This document shows, piece by piece, positions 26,669 through 36,485 of a DNA stretch of 64,000 bases (position 1 is its first letter; the number at the start of each line of letters is the position of its first letter). The DNA comes from Thermasporomyces composti. GTDB lineage: Bacteria; Actinomycetota; Actinomycetes; Propionibacteriales; Actinopolymorphaceae. The stretch covers positions 2,790,001 through 2,854,000 of the forward strand of contig NZ_QTUC01000001.1 of assembly GCF_003386795.1 (NCBI RefSeq), written 5' to 3'. The notes under the pieces are model-generated. The model did not search any database. It saw only the letters and a program-made list of their open reading frames with translations, and was not told the DNA's origin. A program made the position numbers and the translations under genes.

Positions 26669-26702
26669 ACTTGTCGATGTCGCCCTACTTGTCGATGTCG
26701 CC
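26669..26702. repeat. 16-bp tandem duplication at the nuoD 3' end
   Basis: ACTTGTCGATGTCGCC occurs at 26669-26684 and 26687-26702. The second copy holds the last codons of nuoD (GDID-Lys, read on the minus strand); the first lies just after the stop, so the end of the gene has been duplicated beyond the stop codon. Confidence 0.6.
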
Positions 26703-27902
26703 GACGACGAAGAACATCGACCCGAGGATGGCCACGAGGTCGGCGACGACGCAGCCGGCCACCAGCCTCGGCAGGACGGCGATGTTGTTGAACGACGGCG
26801 AGCGCAGCTTGAGCCGCCAGGGTGTCTTCTCACCACGCGACACCAAGAAGTACCCGTTGATCCCGAGCGGGCTCTCCGTCCAGCAGTAGGTGTGACCTTC
26901 CGGCACCTTGAGGATCTTGGGAAGCCGGACGTTGACCGGGCCTGGGGGCAAGGAGCGGAGCCGGTCGACACACGCCTCGGCCAGGTCCAAGGAGACGTGC
27001 ACCTGCTCGCGGAGGACGCTGAATCGGGCGAAGCAGTCGCCGTCCGTGTGCGTCACCACGCGACCTGGCTGGCCGGGAGCGAACAGCTCACCGTAGGCGA
27101 GGTAGGGCTCGTCTCGACGCAGGTCCATGTCGACGCCCGACGCGCGAGCGATGGGGCCGGAGACCCCGTAGGCGTGGATGACCTCGGGAGACAGCACGCC
27201 GACGCCGCGTGTCCTGGCCTGGAACGTCTCGTTGTCGAAGATCAGGTCCTCCAGCTCGGGTAGGCGCCGTCGGCAGGCCGCGATCGCCGCCGAGACGCGA
27301 TCGAGCCAGCCGGCCGGCAGGTCCTCCTTCAGGCCGCCCACCCGGTTGAACATGTAGTGCATCCGCCCGCCGGAGACCTCTTCCATGACCTGTTGGAGCG
27401 TCTCCCGCTCGCGGAAGGCGTAGAACATCGGCGTGATCGCGCCGAGCTCGAGCGGATAGCTGCCGAGGAACATCAGGTGATTGAGCACACGGTTGAGCTC
27501 GGCCAGCAGCGTCCGCGCCCAGACGGCGCGCGCCGGCACCTCCAGACCGAGCATCCGCTCCACGGCCAGGACCACGCCCAGCTCGTTGGCGAACGCGGAG
27601 AGCCAGTCGTGGCGGTTGGCCAGCATGATGATCTGGCGGTAGTCGCGGACCTCGAAGAGCTTCTCCGCGCCTCGGTGCATGTAGCCCACGATCGGCTCGC
27701 AGGCGACGATGCGTTCGCCGTCGAGCGTGAGGCGTAGTCGCAGGACGCCGTGCGTGGCGGGGTGCTGCGGTCCGATATTGAGCACCATGTCCTGGGTGGC
27801 CAACTCCTCGCCGCCGCCCCGCTCGTAGGAGTCGGACACCGGGGGGAGGCCCGCCGCGCCCGCCCCGAGACTCACGATCCGCTCCGACGTCACGTGGACC
27901 AT
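26685..27902 (-). CDS. Orphan NADH-quinone oxidoreductase subunit D (49-kDa subunit)
   Basis: 405 residues. Subunit D of complex I lines the quinone cavity with subunit B and descends from the NiFe-hydrogenase large subunit. Family signatures: [16 protein letters not shown] with the quinone-binding His, [12 protein letters not shown] (Arg77, equivalent to bovine NDUFS2 Arg85), [19 protein letters not shown], and the terminal [25 protein letters not shown]. The N-terminus is variable (about 35 residues). No other nuo gene is nearby, so this is a second or detached NuoD of the type seen alone in some actinomycetes. It is divergent from the PH-domain gene across only 36 bp and close to a MidA-type methyltransferase gene. 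Which complex it joins is not visible here. Confidence 0.9.
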
Positions 27903-27920
27903 GCTCGCACAGGGTCACTC

Positions 27921-27928
27921 GATATAGC
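27921..27928. promoter_or_regulatory. Candidate shared -10 box for two divergent genes
   Basis: The 36-bp gap between nuoD (-) and the PH-domain gene (+) contains GATATAGC. Read on the plus strand it offers TATAGC about 11 bases before the ATG at 27939; read on the minus strand, TATATC about 18 bases before the nuoD ATG. Neither start has a clear ribosome binding site, which fits leaderless or near-leaderless transcripts from one symmetric element. Inference from sequence only. Confidence 0.4.
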
Positions 27929-27938
27929 CTCCCTGCTC

Positions 27939-28427
27939 ATGGACAGCTTGTTCGCGCCACCAGGCCAGCGGTGGCAGACCGTCTCGCCCCAGCTTCGCGC
28001 GCTTCGGCGGCTGATCCTCTCGGTGGTGCTCGGGGTCGTCGGCCCGCTGTCCGCGGTTCTCGCTGGCGTCCTCGTCGCGTGGTGGTTGGCGGTCGTGGTC
28101 CTGGCGGTGGCTGTCGTCGTCTTCGCGTGGGGCTGGTGGCTGATCGACCGCAACTGGCGTTCCTGGGGGTACGCCGAACGCGGAGACGACCTCCTGGTGA
28201 CGCACGGCGTGCTGTTCCGGCGGCTCGTCGTCGTCCCGTACGGGCGGATGCAGTTCGTCGACGTGACCGCCGGACCCCTGGAGCGCAGGTTCGGTATCGC
28301 CAAGGTCCAGTTGCACACCGCCACGCCGGCCACCGAGGCCGACATCCCAGGGCTGACGGCGGCGGAGGCCGCGGGTCTGCGGGACCGCTTGGCGGCGTTG
28401 GGCGAGGCGCGGGCGGCGGGTCTATGA
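27939..28427 (+). CDS. bPH2 (DUF304) membrane protein, YdbS-like
   Basis: 162 residues. Two adjacent membrane helices (LILSVVLGVVGPLSAVLAGVLV and LAVVVLAVAVVVFAWGWW) precede a bacterial pleckstrin-homology domain of the DUF304 type: WGYAERGDDLLVTHGVLFRRLVVVPYGRMQFVDVTAGPLERRFG, with the characteristic GRMQ.VDVTAGPLERRFGIAKVQL signature. Members pair with a larger bPH2 protein (YdbT) in many Gram-positives; their role in membrane or cell-wall stress is poorly defined. The next gene overlaps by ATGA. Divergent from nuoD. Confidence 0.86.
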   Translation: MDSLFAPPGQRWQTVSPQLRALRRLILSVVLGVVGPLSAVLAGVLVAWWLAVVVLAVAVVVFAWGWWLIDRNWRSWGYAERGDDLLVTHGVLFRRLVVVPYGRMQFVDVTAGPLERRFGIAKVQLHTATPATEADIPGLTAAEAAGLRDRLAALGEARAAGL

Positions 28428-29827
28428 CGGCGATGGTGGGACCAACCCAGGGGCCAGAACCCCACCAGGAGCCTGGTCGGGACGACGATCCCCAAGGCCG
28501 AGAGCCGGGTCACGGATTCGGCTCCGACGCCACCGAACTGCGGCGGCTCCATCCGGTCACCCCGTTCCTCAAGGGGTGGAAGTTCGTCGCGGTCCTCGTG
28601 GCGATCGTCGGCCAGCAGTCCTTTCGAGGCACCACGCTCCGCGTTCTGGTCGCGGAGCTGGCCGGCGTTCTCGTCTTCGGGCTGGTCCTGGGCGCCTGCT
28701 CCTGGTGGTTCACCAAGTACCGGATCGAGGGCGAGGACCTACGCGTCGACAGCGGCATCCTCTTCCGACGTTCCCGGCGCGTCCGGATCGATCGGTTGCA
28801 AGCGGTCGACATCGTTCGACCCGTCGTCGCGCGCTTGCTGGGTGTCGCCGAGCTGCGCCTGGAGGTGGCGGGTGGCGCGCAGACCGAGGCGCCGCTGGCC
28901 TACCTCTCCGAGCACCACGCCCAGCGTCTGCGGGCCGAGCTGCTCGCTCGAGCCGCCGGGCTCGCGGCCGACACCCCCGAGGCGCCGGAGCGCCAGCTCG
29001 TCGCGGTCCCACCGAGCACCCTGCTCGCCTCGACGATCATCAGCGCGCCGTTCCTCGTGGCCGCGCTGGGCTTCGTGGTCGTGGCCGTGACGACGAGCTT
29101 CGTTCAGCAGATCGCCGGGGTGGCGCTCCTCGTGCCGTGGGCCCTGGGCGGGGTGGGGGTGGTGTGGCGTCAGTTCGTCAGCGAGTACGGCTTCTCGGTG
29201 AGCGAGTCACCCGACGGTCTCCGGATCCGCAAAGGCCTCCTCGACACCTGGGCACAGACCGTCCCACCGGGGCGGGTCCAGGCGGTCGAGATCGAGCAAC
29301 AGCTGTTGTGGCGGCCGAAGGGATGGGTGAAGCTCACGGTCAACGTCGCCGGATACGCCGGACGGAACACCGAAGGCCCCACGTCGTCCACCTTGCTTCC
29401 CGTGGCGCCCTGGCCGGTGGCGCGGGCGTTGCTCCAGCGGGTGTTACCGGACGTCGACGTCGACCGCGTGCCACGGGTGTCCGCGCCCCGGCGAGCCCGG
29501 TGGCTGCGGCCGATCGGCTGGCGCTTCCTCCGGTACGGCAGCGACGAGAAGGTGTTCGTCTCCGAGGTGGGCTGGCTCACCCGGCGGATTGCGGTCGTTC
29601 CGCACGCCAAGATGCAAAGCGTCCGGATCACCCAGGGACCCCTCCAGCGCGCGCTGCGCTTGGCGACCGTCCACGTCGACACGCCCGTCGGCCCCGTCGA
29701 CGCGGTCGCGTTGCACAGGTCGAGTGACGAGGCGCGACACATCGCCGAGGCGCAGGCCGAGCTGGCCCGGCACGCTCGGAAGCTCGCTGGGCCCGAACGC
29801 TGGATGCGCCCGCCCGATTCGCCGTGA
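28424..29827 (+). CDS. bPH2 (DUF304) tandem-domain membrane protein, YdbT-like
   Basis: 467 residues. A hydrophilic acidic head, then membrane pair 1 (VAVLVAIVGQQSF.., LAGVLVFGLVLGACSWW) with a PH domain (RRVRIDRLQAVDIVRPVVARLLG), membrane pair 2 (ASTIISAPFLVAALGFVVV, IAGVALLVPWALGGVGVV) with a second PH domain (PGRVQAVEIEQQLLWRPKG), and a C-terminal third PH-like repeat (HAKMQSVRITQGPLQRALRL). This is the YdbT layout. ATG at 28424 overlaps the stop of the YdbS-like gene by four bases, so the two act together. It ends exactly where the convergent MidA-type gene ends. Confidence 0.86.
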   Translation: MTAMVGPTQGPEPHQEPGRDDDPQGREPGHGFGSDATELRRLHPVTPFLKGWKFVAVLVAIVGQQSFRGTTLRVLVAELAGVLVFGLVLGACSWWFTKYRIEGEDLRVDSGILFRRSRRVRIDRLQAVDIVRPVVARLLGVAELRLEVAGGAQTEAPLAYLSEHHAQRLRAELLARAAGLAADTPEAPERQLVAVPPSTLLASTIISAPFLVAALGFVVVAVTTSFVQQIAGVALLVPWALGGVGVVWRQFVSEYGFSVSESPDGLRIRKGLLDTWAQTVPPGRVQAVEIEQQLLWRPKGWVKLTVNVAGYAGRNTEGPTSSTLLPVAPWPVARALLQRVLPDVDVDRVPRVSAPRRARWLRPIGWRFLRYGSDEKVFVSEVGWLTRRIAVVPHAKMQSVRITQGPLQRALRLATVHVDTPVGPVDAVALHRSSDEARHIAEAQAELARHARKLAGPERWMRPPDSP

Positions 29828-30850
29828 TCACCTATCGCCGGGACGGGCTGGGCTCGAAGGGTGGACACGACGACGCGCGGCGCGGCACAGCTCGGCCGGC
29901 GGGTCGACGTCGCGGGCCTGGAGCACCCACCAGAACCCGCCGAGCCCACCGGCGTCCACCAGCTCCGAGGCCTCGCAGCTGCGGGCCAGCGCCGCGAGGT
30001 ACCCACGCGGGTCGGTGTGCGCGAGGGCGTGGGGCGGACGTGCGGCGCTCACCCCGAGCGCGCGGAGCGCGTCTCGCTGCCGGGTGACCAGGGTGGACTG
30101 GGCGCCCGCGCACTCGCCCGCGTGAGCCACCGCGTCCACCGCGACGTGGCTGGTGATGTCGCACGACGTGTCCGGGACGGGAGAGACGACGCGACCGGAC
30201 CGGTACGCGGTCAGGGTCCCCCGCCAGGGCCGCTCCTCGCGCAGGTGGCCGTAGTCGATGGCGACGGCGACACCGTGCCGGAGCCGGCGCACGACGTCAG
30301 CCCACGCGTCGTCACGAGGCCACCCGATCTCGCCTCGGCTCCCGGGAGGCGCGTCGGCGAGCGGCCACCACTCGTCCAGCCAGGCCGCGTCACGTCCGGT
30401 CACCGGCGGCCCGAGTCGTTCGTTCCCCGTCGCGACGTCGACCTCCACGATCCGGGCGGTACCGTGCGGATCGACCTCGGCGACGTCGACGGGGACGTTG
30501 TCGAGCCACTCGTTGGCGACGATCAGCGCGTCGACGTCGTGGGGCACGGTGTCGGTCCAGGTCGCCGCCGCGGGGACGGTCGAGGGCCGGTCGGCCAGCT
30601 CCACGCCGACGAGGGTGAGATCAGGCGCCAGGTCGTGCAGCGCGGCCAGGAGCTCGCCCCGGCCGGCGCCGACGTCGACCACCGTCGTGAGCCCCGTGGA
30701 CCGGGCCAGGCGGAGCAGAGCGGCCGCGAACTGCGTGGACACGTGAACCGAGGTGCGGAAGTGCTCCGCCGGTGCCTGGGTGCGGAAGAAGCCGTCCGGC
30801 CCGTAGAGCGCCTCGGTGGTCGCCTCGCGCCAGGTTCGCCAGCGTGCCAT
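29828..30850 (-). CDS. MidA/NDUFAF7-like SAM-dependent methyltransferase
   Basis: 340 residues. The N-terminus ALYGPDGFFRTQAPAEHFRTSVHVS is the family-specific entry, followed by the SAM loop VVDVGAGRGELLAAL, LVGVELADRP, an IVANEWLDNVPVDV segment (the ANE.LD motif) and VAVAIDYGHLREERP. The eukaryotic member NDUFAF7 (MidA) dimethylates Arg85 of complex I subunit NDUFS2, which is NuoD; here an orphan NuoD with the equivalent arginine lies 2 kb away, on the same strand. Bacterial members are otherwise uncharacterised. Convergent with the YdbT-like gene and divergent from the sensor kinase across 153 bp. Confidence 0.85.
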   Translation of the reverse strand: MARWRTWREATTEALYGPDGFFRTQAPAEHFRTSVHVSTQFAAALLRLARSTGLTTVVDVGAGRGELLAALHDLAPDLTLVGVELADRPSTVPAAATWTDTVPHDVDALIVANEWLDNVPVDVAEVDPHGTARIVEVDVATGNERLGPPVTGRDAAWLDEWWPLADAPPGSRGEIGWPRDDAWADVVRRLRHGVAVAIDYGHLREERPWRGTLTAYRSGRVVSPVPDTSCDITSHVAVDAVAHAGECAGAQSTLVTRQRDALRALGVSAARPPHALAHTDPRGYLAALARSCEASELVDAGGLGGFWWVLQARDVDPPAELCRAARRRVHPSSPARPGDR

Positions 30851-33231: not shown

Positions 33232-33981
33232 ATGCCTGCCATACCGGCCACCTCTGTACGCATGGCGGCGAGCGCCGTCGACCTCGTCAAGGTCTACGGC
33301 TCTGGGCCGACCGCCGTTCGCGCCCTCGACGGGGTGACCGTGGGATTCGAGGCCGCGCGGTTCACGGCGATCATGGGGCCCTCCGGTTCAGGCAAGTCGA
33401 CCCTCATGCACTGCCTGGCTGGCCTGGACTCCGTGACCTCGGGAACGGTGCGGATCGGCGACACAGACCTCAGCAGCTTGTCGGATCGCGAGCTCACCCG
33501 GCTGCGTCGGGACCGAGTGGGCTTCGTGTTCCAGGCGTTCAACCTGATGCCGACGTTGACCGCCAAGCAGAACATCCTGCTGCCGCTCGAGCTCGCGGGG
33601 CGCAAGCCCGACCAGGCGTGGTTCACCACCCTCGTCGACGTCCTCGGCCTGGCCGACCGGCTGAACCACCGACCCGCGGAGATGTCGGGCGGGCAGCAGC
33701 AGCGGGTGGCGCTCGCCCGAGCGCTCGTGACCCGACCGGAAGTCGTCTTCGCCGACGAACCGACGGGCAACCTCGACTCGCGGACGGGGGCGGAGGTGCT
33801 GTCGTTCCTGCGGACGTCGGTCCGTGAGTTCGGCCAGACCATCGTCATGGTGACGCACGATCCGGTAGCCGCCTCGTACGCGGAGCGGGTCGTCCTCGTC
33901 GCGGATGGGAAGGTCGTGGGCGAGATCGCCCAGCCGACACCGGACTCGGTCCTCGACGCGATGCGGAAGCTGGGGGCCTGA
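33232..33981 (+). CDS. MacB/LolD-type ABC transporter ATP-binding protein
   Basis: 249 residues. ATPase of the MacB/FtsX exporter group: Walker A GPSGSGKS at residues 49-56, Q-loop FVFQAFNLMPTLTAKQNILLP, signature MSGGQQQRVALARAL, Walker B VVFADEPTGNLD and the His switch MVTHD. ATG start with AAGGAG five to ten bases upstream. The final base of the gene overlaps the first base of the permease ATG. Likely target of the upstream two-component system; substrate may be an antimicrobial peptide or lipid-II-binding drug, inferred from context only. Confidence 0.94.
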   Translation: MPAIPATSVRMAASAVDLVKVYGSGPTAVRALDGVTVGFEAARFTAIMGPSGSGKSTLMHCLAGLDSVTSGTVRIGDTDLSSLSDRELTRLRRDRVGFVFQAFNLMPTLTAKQNILLPLELAGRKPDQAWFTTLVDVLGLADRLNHRPAEMSGGQQQRVALARALVTRPEVVFADEPTGNLDSRTGAEVLSFLRTSVREFGQTIVMVTHDPVAASYAERVVLVADGKVVGEIAQPTPDSVLDAMRKLGA

Positions 33982-36485
33982 TGACGGGGCAGCTGACACT
34001 CGCCAACCTCCGGTCGCACACCGCCCGCTACGTCGCGGGCGGAATCGCGATCGTGCTGGGCGTCGCGTTCATCACCGCGGCCATGCTCGTGTCGGGGTCC
34101 ACGCGCGCCGCCTTGGCGCGGGCCGTCGGGGCGCAGTACGACCAGGCGGACGTGGTCTTGCTCAGCGACAGCTTCATTTCGTCCGACGTGGTTCGCCAGG
34201 TCAGGGGCCTGGACTCGGTCGAGGCCGCCTCCGGCGTCGCGGCGACGGGTCTCGGTGTCGTCTATCCCGACTCCAGGCAGCCGACGTGGGTAGGCGCCCG
34301 GAGCCTTCCCGTCGATCCCGACCTGCGCTGGCACAAGCTGACCGAAGGTCGCCTGCCGCGCACCGCCGATGAGGTCGCCGTCTCGGAGCTGGTCGCGGCG
34401 GACCGGAACCTTCGGCCAGGCTCCGTCCTGCGCGCTGAGTCGAGCGCCAGCCCATCGGGGGATGCCGACCAGGCTCTGACCACGCTCCGAGTGGTCGGCA
34501 TTGTGGCCCGGGACTCGCTCCCGCCGAGCGCCGCGCTCGTGGTGACCGAGGACTGGATCATCGGCTGGCGGGGCAGCGCGCAGTACAACGAGGTTCTGGT
34601 CAAAGCCGCCCCCGGTGCTGACGTGCCCCAGCTCCTCGCGGATGTTCGCGCGGTGGCCGGGTCCGGCGCGACCGTGCGGACCGTCGAGGCACACGTCGAC
34701 GCGACGGTCGAGGGGCTGACCGGCGGCGTCAACGTCCTTGGCGCGTTCCTCCTCGGCTTCGCGGCGATCGCGGTCTTCGTCGCGACCCTGGTCGTGGCCA
34801 ACACGTTCACGATCCTGCTCGCCCAGCGCACCCGCGAGCTCGCGCTGCTCCGTTGCGTGGGAGCGCAGCGCGGTCAGGTGCGCAGGTCCGTGCTCGGCGA
34901 GTCGGCCGTTCTCGGCCTCGTCGCGTCCGCGGTCGGTGTGGCGGTGGGTGCCGGCCTGGCGGCCGTCGCGGTGGTCCTGCTCGAGCGGACCAACACCGCT
35001 GTCGTGATGGGAATCCAGCTCGACCCGGTCTCCGTGCTGGTTCCCATCGGTGTCGGCCTGCTCACCACGGTGGTCGCCGCCTTCGTCCCGGCCCGACGGG
35101 CCACCCGCGTGCCACCCCTGGCCGCGTTGCGACCCGAGCTCGCGATTCGAGTGCGCTCCCGGGGTGGGCTTCTCCGGCTGTGCTTGGCGCTGCTCCTGGT
35201 CCTCGCCGGCGTCGGGTTGATCGCCGCGGGTTTGGGGGCCGAGGACATCACGGTCGGGATGCTGCTCGGGGTCGCCGGAGGTGCGCTCTCCTTCCTCGGC
35301 GTCCTCCTCAGCGGGCGGTTCCTGGTTCCCGTGCTGGTCCGGTTGCTCGGCCTGGTCGTCGGCCGAGGCGTGCCGGGACGTCTCTCGGTCGCCAACGCGG
35401 TCCGCAACCCGGGACGAACGGCGGCGACCGCGGGCGCCCTCCTCGTGGGAGTCACCCTGATCTCCCTCATGAACGTGGGTGCCGCGTCGGTCGAGCGCAC
35501 GATCAACACCTGGCTGGACGATCAGTACCCGCTCGACCTGGCCGCCGAGATCGGTGGCTCGGCCGGGATCTCCGCCCAGACGGTCGACGCGGTCCGCGAC
35601 GTCGAGGGTGTGCAGGAGGTGGCGGTCCTGCGTGCGGCACAGGTCCAGACCGACGGTCCGGCCGGACCGGTGGACCGCGAGGCGTTCGGGGTCGATCCGG
35701 AGGTCGCGTCGTCGGTGCTCCGCGAGCCGAGCGTGGTCCGCGACCTGCGTGACGGCGTCGCCGTCATGGGCCCGAGCTTCGCGGATGGGCTGGGTGTCGA
35801 GGAGGGGGACACCGTCCAGCTCCGAGGCGAGAACGACGCGACCGTCACAGTCCAGGCGCGGATCGTCAAGTCGGATGCGACGCCGGATCTCCTGCTCACG
35901 GCTCGCGACCTGGAGCGACTCGCGCCCGACGCACCGACCGCGATGGTGTGGGCCCGGCTCGCGGACGGTGTGACTGAGCAGACCGTGATCTCCCGGGTCG
36001 AGGACGCGCTCGCGGATGCCGAGACCGTCCAGCTCTTCGGAGGTGCTCCAGAGCGAGCGTTCTACAACCAGGTACTCACCGTCATGCTCCTGATCGCCAC
36101 GGGTCTGCTGGGCATCGCGGTCCTCATCGCCTTGGTCGGCGTGGGCAACACCTTGAGCCTCTCGGTGATCGAGCGGACGCGCGAGCAGGCGTTGCTCCGT
36201 GCTCTCGGACTCACCCGTGGGCAGCTGCGCGGGATGCTGGCGCTGGAGGCCGTGCTCATCGCCGGCGCCGCGGTGGTCCTCGGTCTCGCGCTGGGGATCG
36301 GGTACGGAATCGCGGGGACGACGGTGCTACTGGACCTCGCGACCGAGAACGTCGAGTACGCGATCCCGGTGGAGCGCCTGCTCCTCGTGGCGGTGGTCGC
36401 CCTTCTCGCCGGTCTCGTCGCGTCGCTGCTGCCGGCTCGACGCGCGGTACGAGTGCCACCCGCCTCCGCGCTCGCGGACGAGTGA
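33981..36485 (+). CDS. FtsX-like ABC transporter permease
   Basis: 834 residues. Two FtsX modules. An N-terminal membrane helix (YVAGGIAIVLGVAFITAAMLV), a large extracytoplasmic domain, then three helices around residues 250-380 with the loop ELALLRCVGAQRGQVRRSVLGE; central helices around 390-460; second large extracytoplasmic domain; and C-terminal helices with EQALLRALGLTRGQLRGMLALE. The repeated LLRxLGxxRGQ motif is the hallmark of the type VII family, which transmits mechanical force rather than moving substrate through a channel. One-base overlap with the ATPase gene; ends before a 16-bp hairpin. Confidence 0.92.
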   Translation: MTGQLTLANLRSHTARYVAGGIAIVLGVAFITAAMLVSGSTRAALARAVGAQYDQADVVLLSDSFISSDVVRQVRGLDSVEAASGVAATGLGVVYPDSRQPTWVGARSLPVDPDLRWHKLTEGRLPRTADEVAVSELVAADRNLRPGSVLRAESSASPSGDADQALTTLRVVGIVARDSLPPSAALVVTEDWIIGWRGSAQYNEVLVKAAPGADVPQLLADVRAVAGSGATVRTVEAHVDATVEGLTGGVNVLGAFLLGFAAIAVFVATLVVANTFTILLAQRTRELALLRCVGAQRGQVRRSVLGESAVLGLVASAVGVAVGAGLAAVAVVLLERTNTAVVMGIQLDPVSVLVPIGVGLLTTVVAAFVPARRATRVPPLAALRPELAIRVRSRGGLLRLCLALLLVLAGVGLIAAGLGAEDITVGMLLGVAGGALSFLGVLLSGRFLVPVLVRLLGLVVGRGVPGRLSVANAVRNPGRTAATAGALLVGVTLISLMNVGAASVERTINTWLDDQYPLDLAAEIGGSAGISAQTVDAVRDVEGVQEVAVLRAAQVQTDGPAGPVDREAFGVDPEVASSVLREPSVVRDLRDGVAVMGPSFADGLGVEEGDTVQLRGENDATVTVQARIVKSDATPDLLLTARDLERLAPDAPTAMVWARLADGVTEQTVISRVEDALADAETVQLFGGAPERAFYNQVLTVMLLIATGLLGIAVLIALVGVGNTLSLSVIERTREQALLRALGLTRGQLRGMLALEAVLIAGAAVVLGLALGIGYGIAGTTVLLDLATENVEYAIPVERLLLVAVVALLAGLVASLLPARRAVRVPPASALADE

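Follow-up and report, generated by a model that had tools for sequence, protein, structure and literature searches.

NuoD2 and a neighbouring MidA-family methyltransferase in Thermasporomyces composti: a predicted arginine modification in a probable second, eleven-subunit complex I

The nuoD2-midA locus

The one-contig, 4.37 Mb genome of the actinomycete Thermasporomyces composti contains, in a stretch of 64,000 nucleotides (C1:2790001-2854000, hereafter the window), a gene for a NuoD protein and a gene for a MidA-family methyltransferase, which we discuss here as a probable substrate and the enzyme that may modify it. The first, nuoD2 (26685-27902, minus strand), is an open reading frame of 405 amino acids that we assign to the D (49 kDa) subunit of a second complex I-like enzyme, Nuo2; the second, midA (29828-30850, minus strand), encodes 340 amino acids of a predicted MidA/NDUFAF7-family protein arginine methyltransferase dependent on S-adenosylmethionine (SAM). 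The midA gene lies upstream of nuoD2, with 1,925 bp between them. A first-pass annotation had described a NuoD with an arginine, Arg77, in its HRG segment and a MidA-family methyltransferase about 2 kb away, and both parts of that description hold—the segment reads HRGAEK, and the gap is as given.

NuoD2 is a full-length NuoD match, reaching an E-value of 1.3e-70 against PF00346 in a profile search of the window proteins; it scores 375.8 bits against PRK06075 (NCBIfam), above the cut-off of 360, and 383 against TIGR01962, below the cut-off of 459.35. It shares 35.7% identity (residues 33-404) with NuoD1, the other NuoD of the genome. The predicted methylation site, Arg77 (codon 27672-27674, minus strand; numbering counted from the nuoD2 ATG), sits in the motif YMHRGAEK and corresponds to Arg85 of human NDUFS2 and R121 of the Yarrowia protein. 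The quinone-ligating histidine (Nqo4 H38) is retained at residue 51; the quinone-ligating tyrosine is not, and Trp100 (codon 27603-27605, minus strand) stands in the place of Thermus Nqo4 Y87 and Yarrowia Y144. The large subunit of [NiFe] hydrogenases, with its two CxxC metal-binding motifs, was rejected as an identity for this protein; NuoD2 has no CxxC, and the "hydrogenase-like module" raised in the first-pass annotation falls with it.

MidA matches PF02636 with an E-value of 2.1e-18 and 67.2 bits (curated cut-off 23.3), and is the sole match to this family in the genome. The six best Protein Data Bank matches of its AF2 model (P0003, METHYLTRANSFERASE; 25 sequences, pLDDT 94.9) are 4g67, 4f3n, 1zkd (two chains), 5ztz, and 5zu0, with TMq values of 0.67-0.80; all six are COG1565/MidA proteins, 5ztz and 5zu0 being the structures of the MidA structure paper, and the other 44 structures among the matches listed for the model reach a TMq of at most 0.39. 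Depending on the position, 46 to 53 of 53 sequences retain the residues of G61-x-G63-x-G65, E114, D117, D199-Y200, and T233. We take the conserved glycine motif and the E/D/DY residues to be SAM-binding. On the model, then, the window methyltransferase belongs to the MidA/NDUFAF7 (COG1565, PF02636) fold family. The activity expected of a family member is symmetric dimethylation of the HRGxE arginine of the D subunit. In the human case, NDUFAF7 dimethylates Arg85 of NDUFS2, a modification needed for assembly (PMC3829151); methylation of the residue equivalent to NDUFS2 Arg85 is given as the characterised activity of the family (PMC3829151; review PMC9006661).

Two complex I gene sets and an arginine/threonine switch

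The first-pass annotation described a NuoD without other nuo genes, which is true of its surroundings and not of the genome. A PF00346 search finds two NuoD genes, the window gene (matched in two pieces) and nuoD1 at 2.907 Mb, inside a complete nuoA-N operon (L005/L006), with 87 kb between the first gene of that operon and nuoD2. NuoD1 has the marks of a canonical 14-subunit D, an HTG-type segment that goes with an Arg-type NuoB and a place in the nuoA-N operon; the window NuoD is HRG-type and lies outside it. A second NuoB was found at 2.934 Mb (PF01058), and the 20 kb around it (L067) carry, on one strand, nuoA2, B2, C2, H2, I2, J2, K2, L2, M2, and N2. This nuo2 operon, about 115 kb from nuoD2, lacks D, C2 being followed directly by H2, and it also lacks E, F, and G. 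The genome likewise has two NuoH genes (PF00146) and PF00361 antiporter matches in both nuo operons. The ten nuo2 genes of L067 and nuoD2 of the window together complete an 11-subunit gene set lacking E, F, and G.

Because the nuo2 operon of the same genome lacks a D, NuoD2 is best read as the displaced D subunit of an 11-subunit Nuo2 (A, B, C, D, H-N) without the NADH-oxidising E/F/G module. The split itself was already known, since passages of two Streptomyces papers report a second nuo cluster without E, F, and G and with nuoD2 elsewhere (PMC3765725, PMC8388888). Adjoining nuo2 in L067 (2901-6304) is a divergent KorA/KorB-like 2-oxoacid:ferredoxin oxidoreductase pair. KorA accompanies NuoB2 on the fetched stretch in 27 of 51 in-class loci, which corresponds to 26 of 47 genomes; the upstream DNA of many of these loci spans just 1.5 kb.

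The residue that MidA enzymes methylate takes part in an exchange between the D and B subunits. As described for known structures, the D subunit of Thermus carries threonine and its B subunit carries Arg83 (Nqo6 R83), Yarrowia has dimethyl-Arg121 in D (NDUFS2) and threonine in B, and the side chains of Nqo6 R83 and NDUFS2 R121 overlap spatially beside cluster N2 (PMC8042128). We took both switch positions from alignment columns that cover every NuoD and NuoB frame of the fetched loci, the NuoD1 and NuoB1 rows including 20 genomes in which no NuoD2 was found (L109-L128) and 20 with one (L129-L148; L130 yielded no NuoB). The D position is arginine in 47/47 NuoD2 and threonine in 46/46 NuoD1 rows; the B position is arginine in 45/45 NuoB1 rows and threonine in all 54 NuoB2 rows (50 distinct genomes). 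All four N2 cysteines are retained in every aligned NuoB row. The opposite states of the switch are thus present side by side in one genome.

These reciprocal residues, together with the absence of D from the nuo2 operon, make NuoB2 rather than NuoB1 the most likely partner of NuoD2. The first-pass annotation had also considered that a complete nuo operon elsewhere might supply the true substrate; such an operon exists, but its NuoD1 has threonine at the site and therefore offers no arginine there for MidA. One could instead suppose that NuoD2 serves as an alternative D subunit, able to take the place of NuoD1 in the canonical 14-subunit complex I. The two NuoD genes share a genome, and exchange of NuoL with NuoL2 and of NuoM with NuoM2 has been proposed for Streptomyces and is repeated in a passage of PMC8388888; however, NuoD2 with NuoB1 would put two arginine side chains, and NuoD1 with NuoB2 none, in a space that holds one. 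Apart from E, F, and G, moreover, D is precisely what the nuo2 operon is missing, and in the tree the NuoD1 rows group by themselves. We regard such a swap as very improbable, and a role of NuoD2 as a spare D for the canonical complex was rejected on the switch residues.

Linkage and co-occurrence of NuoD2 and MidA

Co-occurrence of the two genes in actinomycete genomes, named as a check in the first-pass annotation, is borne out by a comparison of 148 genomes of the class Actinomycetes. NuoD2, taken from matches to P0001 (those scoring in the NuoD2 range, with E-values no higher than 9.4e-77; fragments in G234 and G166 are counted), occurs in at least 67 of them, and MidA, taken from PF02636, in 64. 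Both are present in 59 genomes, NuoD2 only in 8, MidA only in 5, and neither in 76, counts that are uncorrected for phylogeny; by family (n=40) the figures are 23, 2, 3, and 12. The two share a contig in 53 of the 59 genomes, with gaps of 133-10,939 bp between the matches (median 2,207 bp), and in the remaining six they lie on different contigs of fragmented assemblies. Chance proximity of nuoD2 and midA was rejected on this comparison. Fisher values for these counts treat genomes or families as independent, and we place no weight on them.

The exceptions can be named. NuoD2 without PF02636 occurs in G161, G165, G220, G234, G253, G264, G265, and G274; of these, G165 and G265 do have an adjacent MidA by tblastn. 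A PF02636 search over six-frame genomes misses divergent MidAs, and the counts above are left uncorrected for these two. A methyltransferase conserved in genomes lacking this NuoD, which the first-pass annotation would have held against its own proposal, is found in five of the 64 MidA-bearing class genomes (G160, G168, G207, G214, and G245). G160 and G245 do have NuoB2; G168 (80% complete) has one NuoB match of canonical strength, along with two weaker matches that do not exceed 99 bits.

Among 40 fetched NuoD2 neighbourhoods, MidA is present in 37 and absent in L043, L044, and L045; 35 of the 40 had been picked because nuoD2 and midA were near each other on a single contig. The 37 are therefore not independent evidence of linkage, for which we use the 148-genome comparison alone. 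In 71 of 80 named-genome loci from close relatives (among them Kribbella, Nonomuraea, Actinomadura, Planotetraspora, Streptosporangium, Janibacter, and Aeromicrobium), midA lies upstream of nuoD2 on the same strand; the nine loci without it have at most 4.98 kb of upstream DNA. These loci were found with the patterns MHRGAEKL and NRHDWL[SA]A; since the patterns favour both residues, the arginine and tryptophan of these loci are not counted as evidence. In one neighbourhood (L019:1575-6593, genome G173), nuoD2 is directly followed on its own strand by two large antiporter-type frames that resemble NuoL/NuoM.

PF02636 occurs in 49 of the 149 genomes of an evenly drawn phylum sample, and 43 of the 49 belong to other classes. 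Three loci from such classes (L050, L051, and L066) have MidA no more than 10 kb away from a nuo2 operon with its own D of NuoD2 type; A, B, C, D, H, I, K, L, M, and N are present in all three and J in two. Read by eye, at least 21 of the 43 out-of-class MidA genomes have MidA and a non-canonical NuoD on one contig, separated by no more than about 21 kb. The NuoDs fetched from 16 further MidA-bearing out-of-class genomes all have HR at the site, the non-canonical copy being fetched where two were present (the canonical copy of G001 has threonine). MidA, in short, goes with Arg-type NuoD. E. coli, searched as a control, gave no PF02636 match; Caulobacter—like Paracoccus, an alphaproteobacterium—has one. 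The arginine of E. coli NuoD is described as present and unmethylated (PMC8042128), and Paracoccus and Pichia as also carrying the modification known from human NDUFS2 Arg85 (PMC3750175).

Two overlapping plus-strand genes fill the interval between nuoD2 and midA in the window. A small protein, PH-like (pleckstrin homology) by eye, is encoded at 27939-28427, divergent from nuoD2, with its ATG 37 bp from that of nuoD2; it is followed by a bPH_2 (bacterial PH domain) gene at 28424-29827 that matches PF03703 in three stretches (E 3.1e-40) and abuts midA. A match to bPH_2 is found in 15 of the 40 neighbourhoods. Downstream of nuoD2, on the plus strand, are folK (HPPK) and DUF3180 genes. Elsewhere in the window (33232-36485) lie genes for an ABC transporter ATPase and then an FtsX-like permease of 834 amino acids.

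This company raises the question of whether midA and nuoD2 are close only through conserved housekeeping synteny (folK, DUF3180, and PH genes), with MidA methylating something else. The constant order and strand among the 80 close relatives wherever MidA was found would suit that explanation, as would G207 and G214, which have MidA and no NuoD2 that was found, and the recurring PH gene. Across the class, however, the spacing varies over the range given above and the orientation varies too, convergent in L017 and L021 and co-directional in the window. The family counts, with both genes or neither in most families, also speak against it, and the link recurs in other classes and other contexts, including beside nuo2 operons. 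We therefore consider synteny alone an improbable explanation.

An apparently reduced Nuo2, the proposed maturation, and known systems

The tyrosine of the quinone site (Thermus Y87, Yarrowia Y144) is described as a ligand of the quinone headgroup (PMC8042128). In the alignment columns this position is tryptophan in 47/47 NuoD2 rows (window, L007-L051, and L066) versus tyrosine in 46/46 NuoD1 rows; the position of Thermus His169 is asparagine in NuoD1 and histidine in NuoD2. Arg-type NuoDs with tyrosine occur in MidA genomes of other classes (G002, G018, G029, and G033), so the tryptophan is not tied to MidA.

In part of the class, Nuo2 itself appears to be smaller. Searches for NuoB and NuoH were made in a set of divergent lineages chosen for their divergence, from which L158, a canonical locus, was left out. 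In 17 of their loci (L149-L157 and L159-L166; genomes G157, G165, G161, G172, G188, G230, G217, G203, G242, G175, G264, G233, G274, G204, G189, G253, and G199) B2-C2-I2 are the sole nuo2 genes found. No genes for nuo2 membrane subunits were found in these loci, where the small A, J, and K could be missed and six short loci cover just ~0.7 to 1.9 kb beyond I2; L165 also contains the end of a canonical NuoN. NuoH2 (PF00146) is full-length in 7 of the 31 NuoD2 genomes searched, a fragment in one (G062), and not found in 23, which include four less than 80% complete (G199, at 78% and with no NuoH at all, G161, G205, and G233); G157 and G165 have extra, weaker PF00146 matches. The locus of G062 (L167:2259-4960) looks like a decaying nuo2, with a weak NuoA2, NuoB2/C2/I2, and a NuoH2 fragment (PF00146 positions 140-192).

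The NuoD2 genes of 18 genomes of the reduced kind form one group in the tree (support 83/92, with long branches that call for caution). The reduced locus is seen in 14 of the 18, and only the missing NuoH2 in the other four (G159, G179, G194, and G246); MidA still adjoins NuoD2 in 15. One Actinomycetes lineage thus appears to have reduced Nuo2 to NuoB-C-I plus NuoD2, without membrane subunits and usually keeping MidA, and a soluble NuoBCDI enzyme is possible there.

Taking the loci together, we think it likely that the window NuoD is the NuoD2 of an 11-subunit Nuo2 and that MidA is a dedicated Nuo2 maturation enzyme, which would dimethylate Arg77 in building cluster N2 of a ferredoxin-linked complex I. 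That MidA modifies Arg77, as its human relative does in mitochondria, is very probable on the sequence evidence. MidA would methylate Arg77 before or during the joining of NuoD2 to NuoB2, and the methylated side chain would then pack beside N2; the probable electron source is ferredoxin, which would be reduced by the divergently encoded KorAB-type enzyme beside nuo2. The canonical complex I would meet the same need with the arginine of NuoB1 and the threonine of NuoD1, and because of these residues it should have no need of MidA. The linkage, the co-occurrence, and the Arg/Thr switch with its reciprocal NuoB strongly favour what the first-pass annotation had proposed—an NDUFAF7-type methylation of a bacterial NuoD for a specialised complex I—in all but its hydrogenase-like part.

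Several observations weigh against this account of maturation. The co-occurrence counts are uncorrected for phylogeny, and G207 (94% complete) and G214 (73%) have MidA with neither a NuoD2 nor a second NuoB found. The arginine is retained in the NuoD2 of L043, L044, and L045 with no MidA nearby, and HR-type NuoDs occur in G036, G020, and G067, genomes without PF02636. Arginine therefore does not require MidA, and since such NuoDs, including that of E. coli, occur without PF02636, conservation of the arginine alone proves little. The tryptophan in place of the quinone-ligating tyrosine makes the quinone chemistry of Nuo2 uncertain. Finally, because MidA persists where the membrane arm seems to be gone, assembly of complex I cannot be its whole role.

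This last point would also fit a MidA that serves NuoD2 or Nuo2 in another way, by modifying a different residue or as a non-catalytic chaperone; the support assembled here is linkage, not chemistry. The SAM-site glycines and conserved acidic residues are kept, however, the Arg77 position is invariant in NuoD2, and methylation of this residue is the family's characterised activity, as cited above. We rate such a role slightly lower still than synteny alone. A different emphasis, which we offer tentatively and hold to be doubtful, is that Nuo2 has ceased to be a quinone reductase, or is not mainly one; it would be a 2-oxoacid/ferredoxin-linked NuoB-C-D2-I oxidoreductase whose former quinone pocket, with its tryptophan and a MidA-methylated arginine near N2, serves another acceptor, the lineage without a membrane arm having a soluble, MidA-matured NuoBCDI.

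If maturation of NuoD2 by MidA is borne out, many actinomycetes would have two complexes per cell, one with a methylatable arginine and a dedicated MidA, the other with its arginine in NuoB and free of MidA. Such a cell is a built-in control, in which MidA could be deleted without touching the main complex I, and with the reduced NuoBCDI form the N2/NuoD site could be studied apart from proton pumping. The mechanisms by which arginine dimethylation acts in complex I assembly or catalysis are described as unconfirmed (PMC8042128). The likely role of MidA would also reach further than proteobacteria and mitochondria, the setting to which the structure paper refers in its title.

The nuo2/nuoD2 split, the chemistry of MidA, and the Thermus/Yarrowia switch are already in print. 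Among the matches listed in open-licence PubMed Central literature, none joins MidA to an actinobacterial NuoD2, none reports both switch states in one cell, and none describes a membrane-less NuoBCDI enzyme; two papers that use the word "nuoBCDI" deal with gene layout or with the Q-module found in ordinary complexes. Of the present findings, the reduced form may turn out to be the most novel.

The closest known system is mitochondrial NDUFAF7 with NDUFS2 Arg85, which shares the PF02636/COG1565 enzyme family and an arginine at the equivalent HRGxE position of D. In contrast, the system described here is bacterial, and its D subunit is assigned to a second complex that lacks an NADH module, beside a canonical complex with threonine; the genes for enzyme and predicted substrate are neighbours, the quinone tyrosine is tryptophan, and the methylation is predicted. 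Cyanobacterial NDH-1 is an 11-subunit complex I-like enzyme without an NADH-oxidising module. The same lack is described for 11-subunit enzymes such as that of Desulfitobacterium (PMC11238625). Unlike in these enzymes, here D is encoded apart, MidA is linked to D, KorAB genes stand by the operon, and tryptophan replaces the tyrosine.

The Streptomyces nuo2 set is alike in its second cluster without E, F, and G and its separate nuoD2; the methyltransferase link, the Arg/Thr switch, and the reduced form go unmentioned in the relevant passages of those accounts (PMC3765725, PMC8388888). The intersubunit switch described for Thermus and Yarrowia concerns the same two positions (PMC8042128); here, however, a single genome has both of its states, divided between two parallel complexes, one of which is accompanied by the MidA gene.

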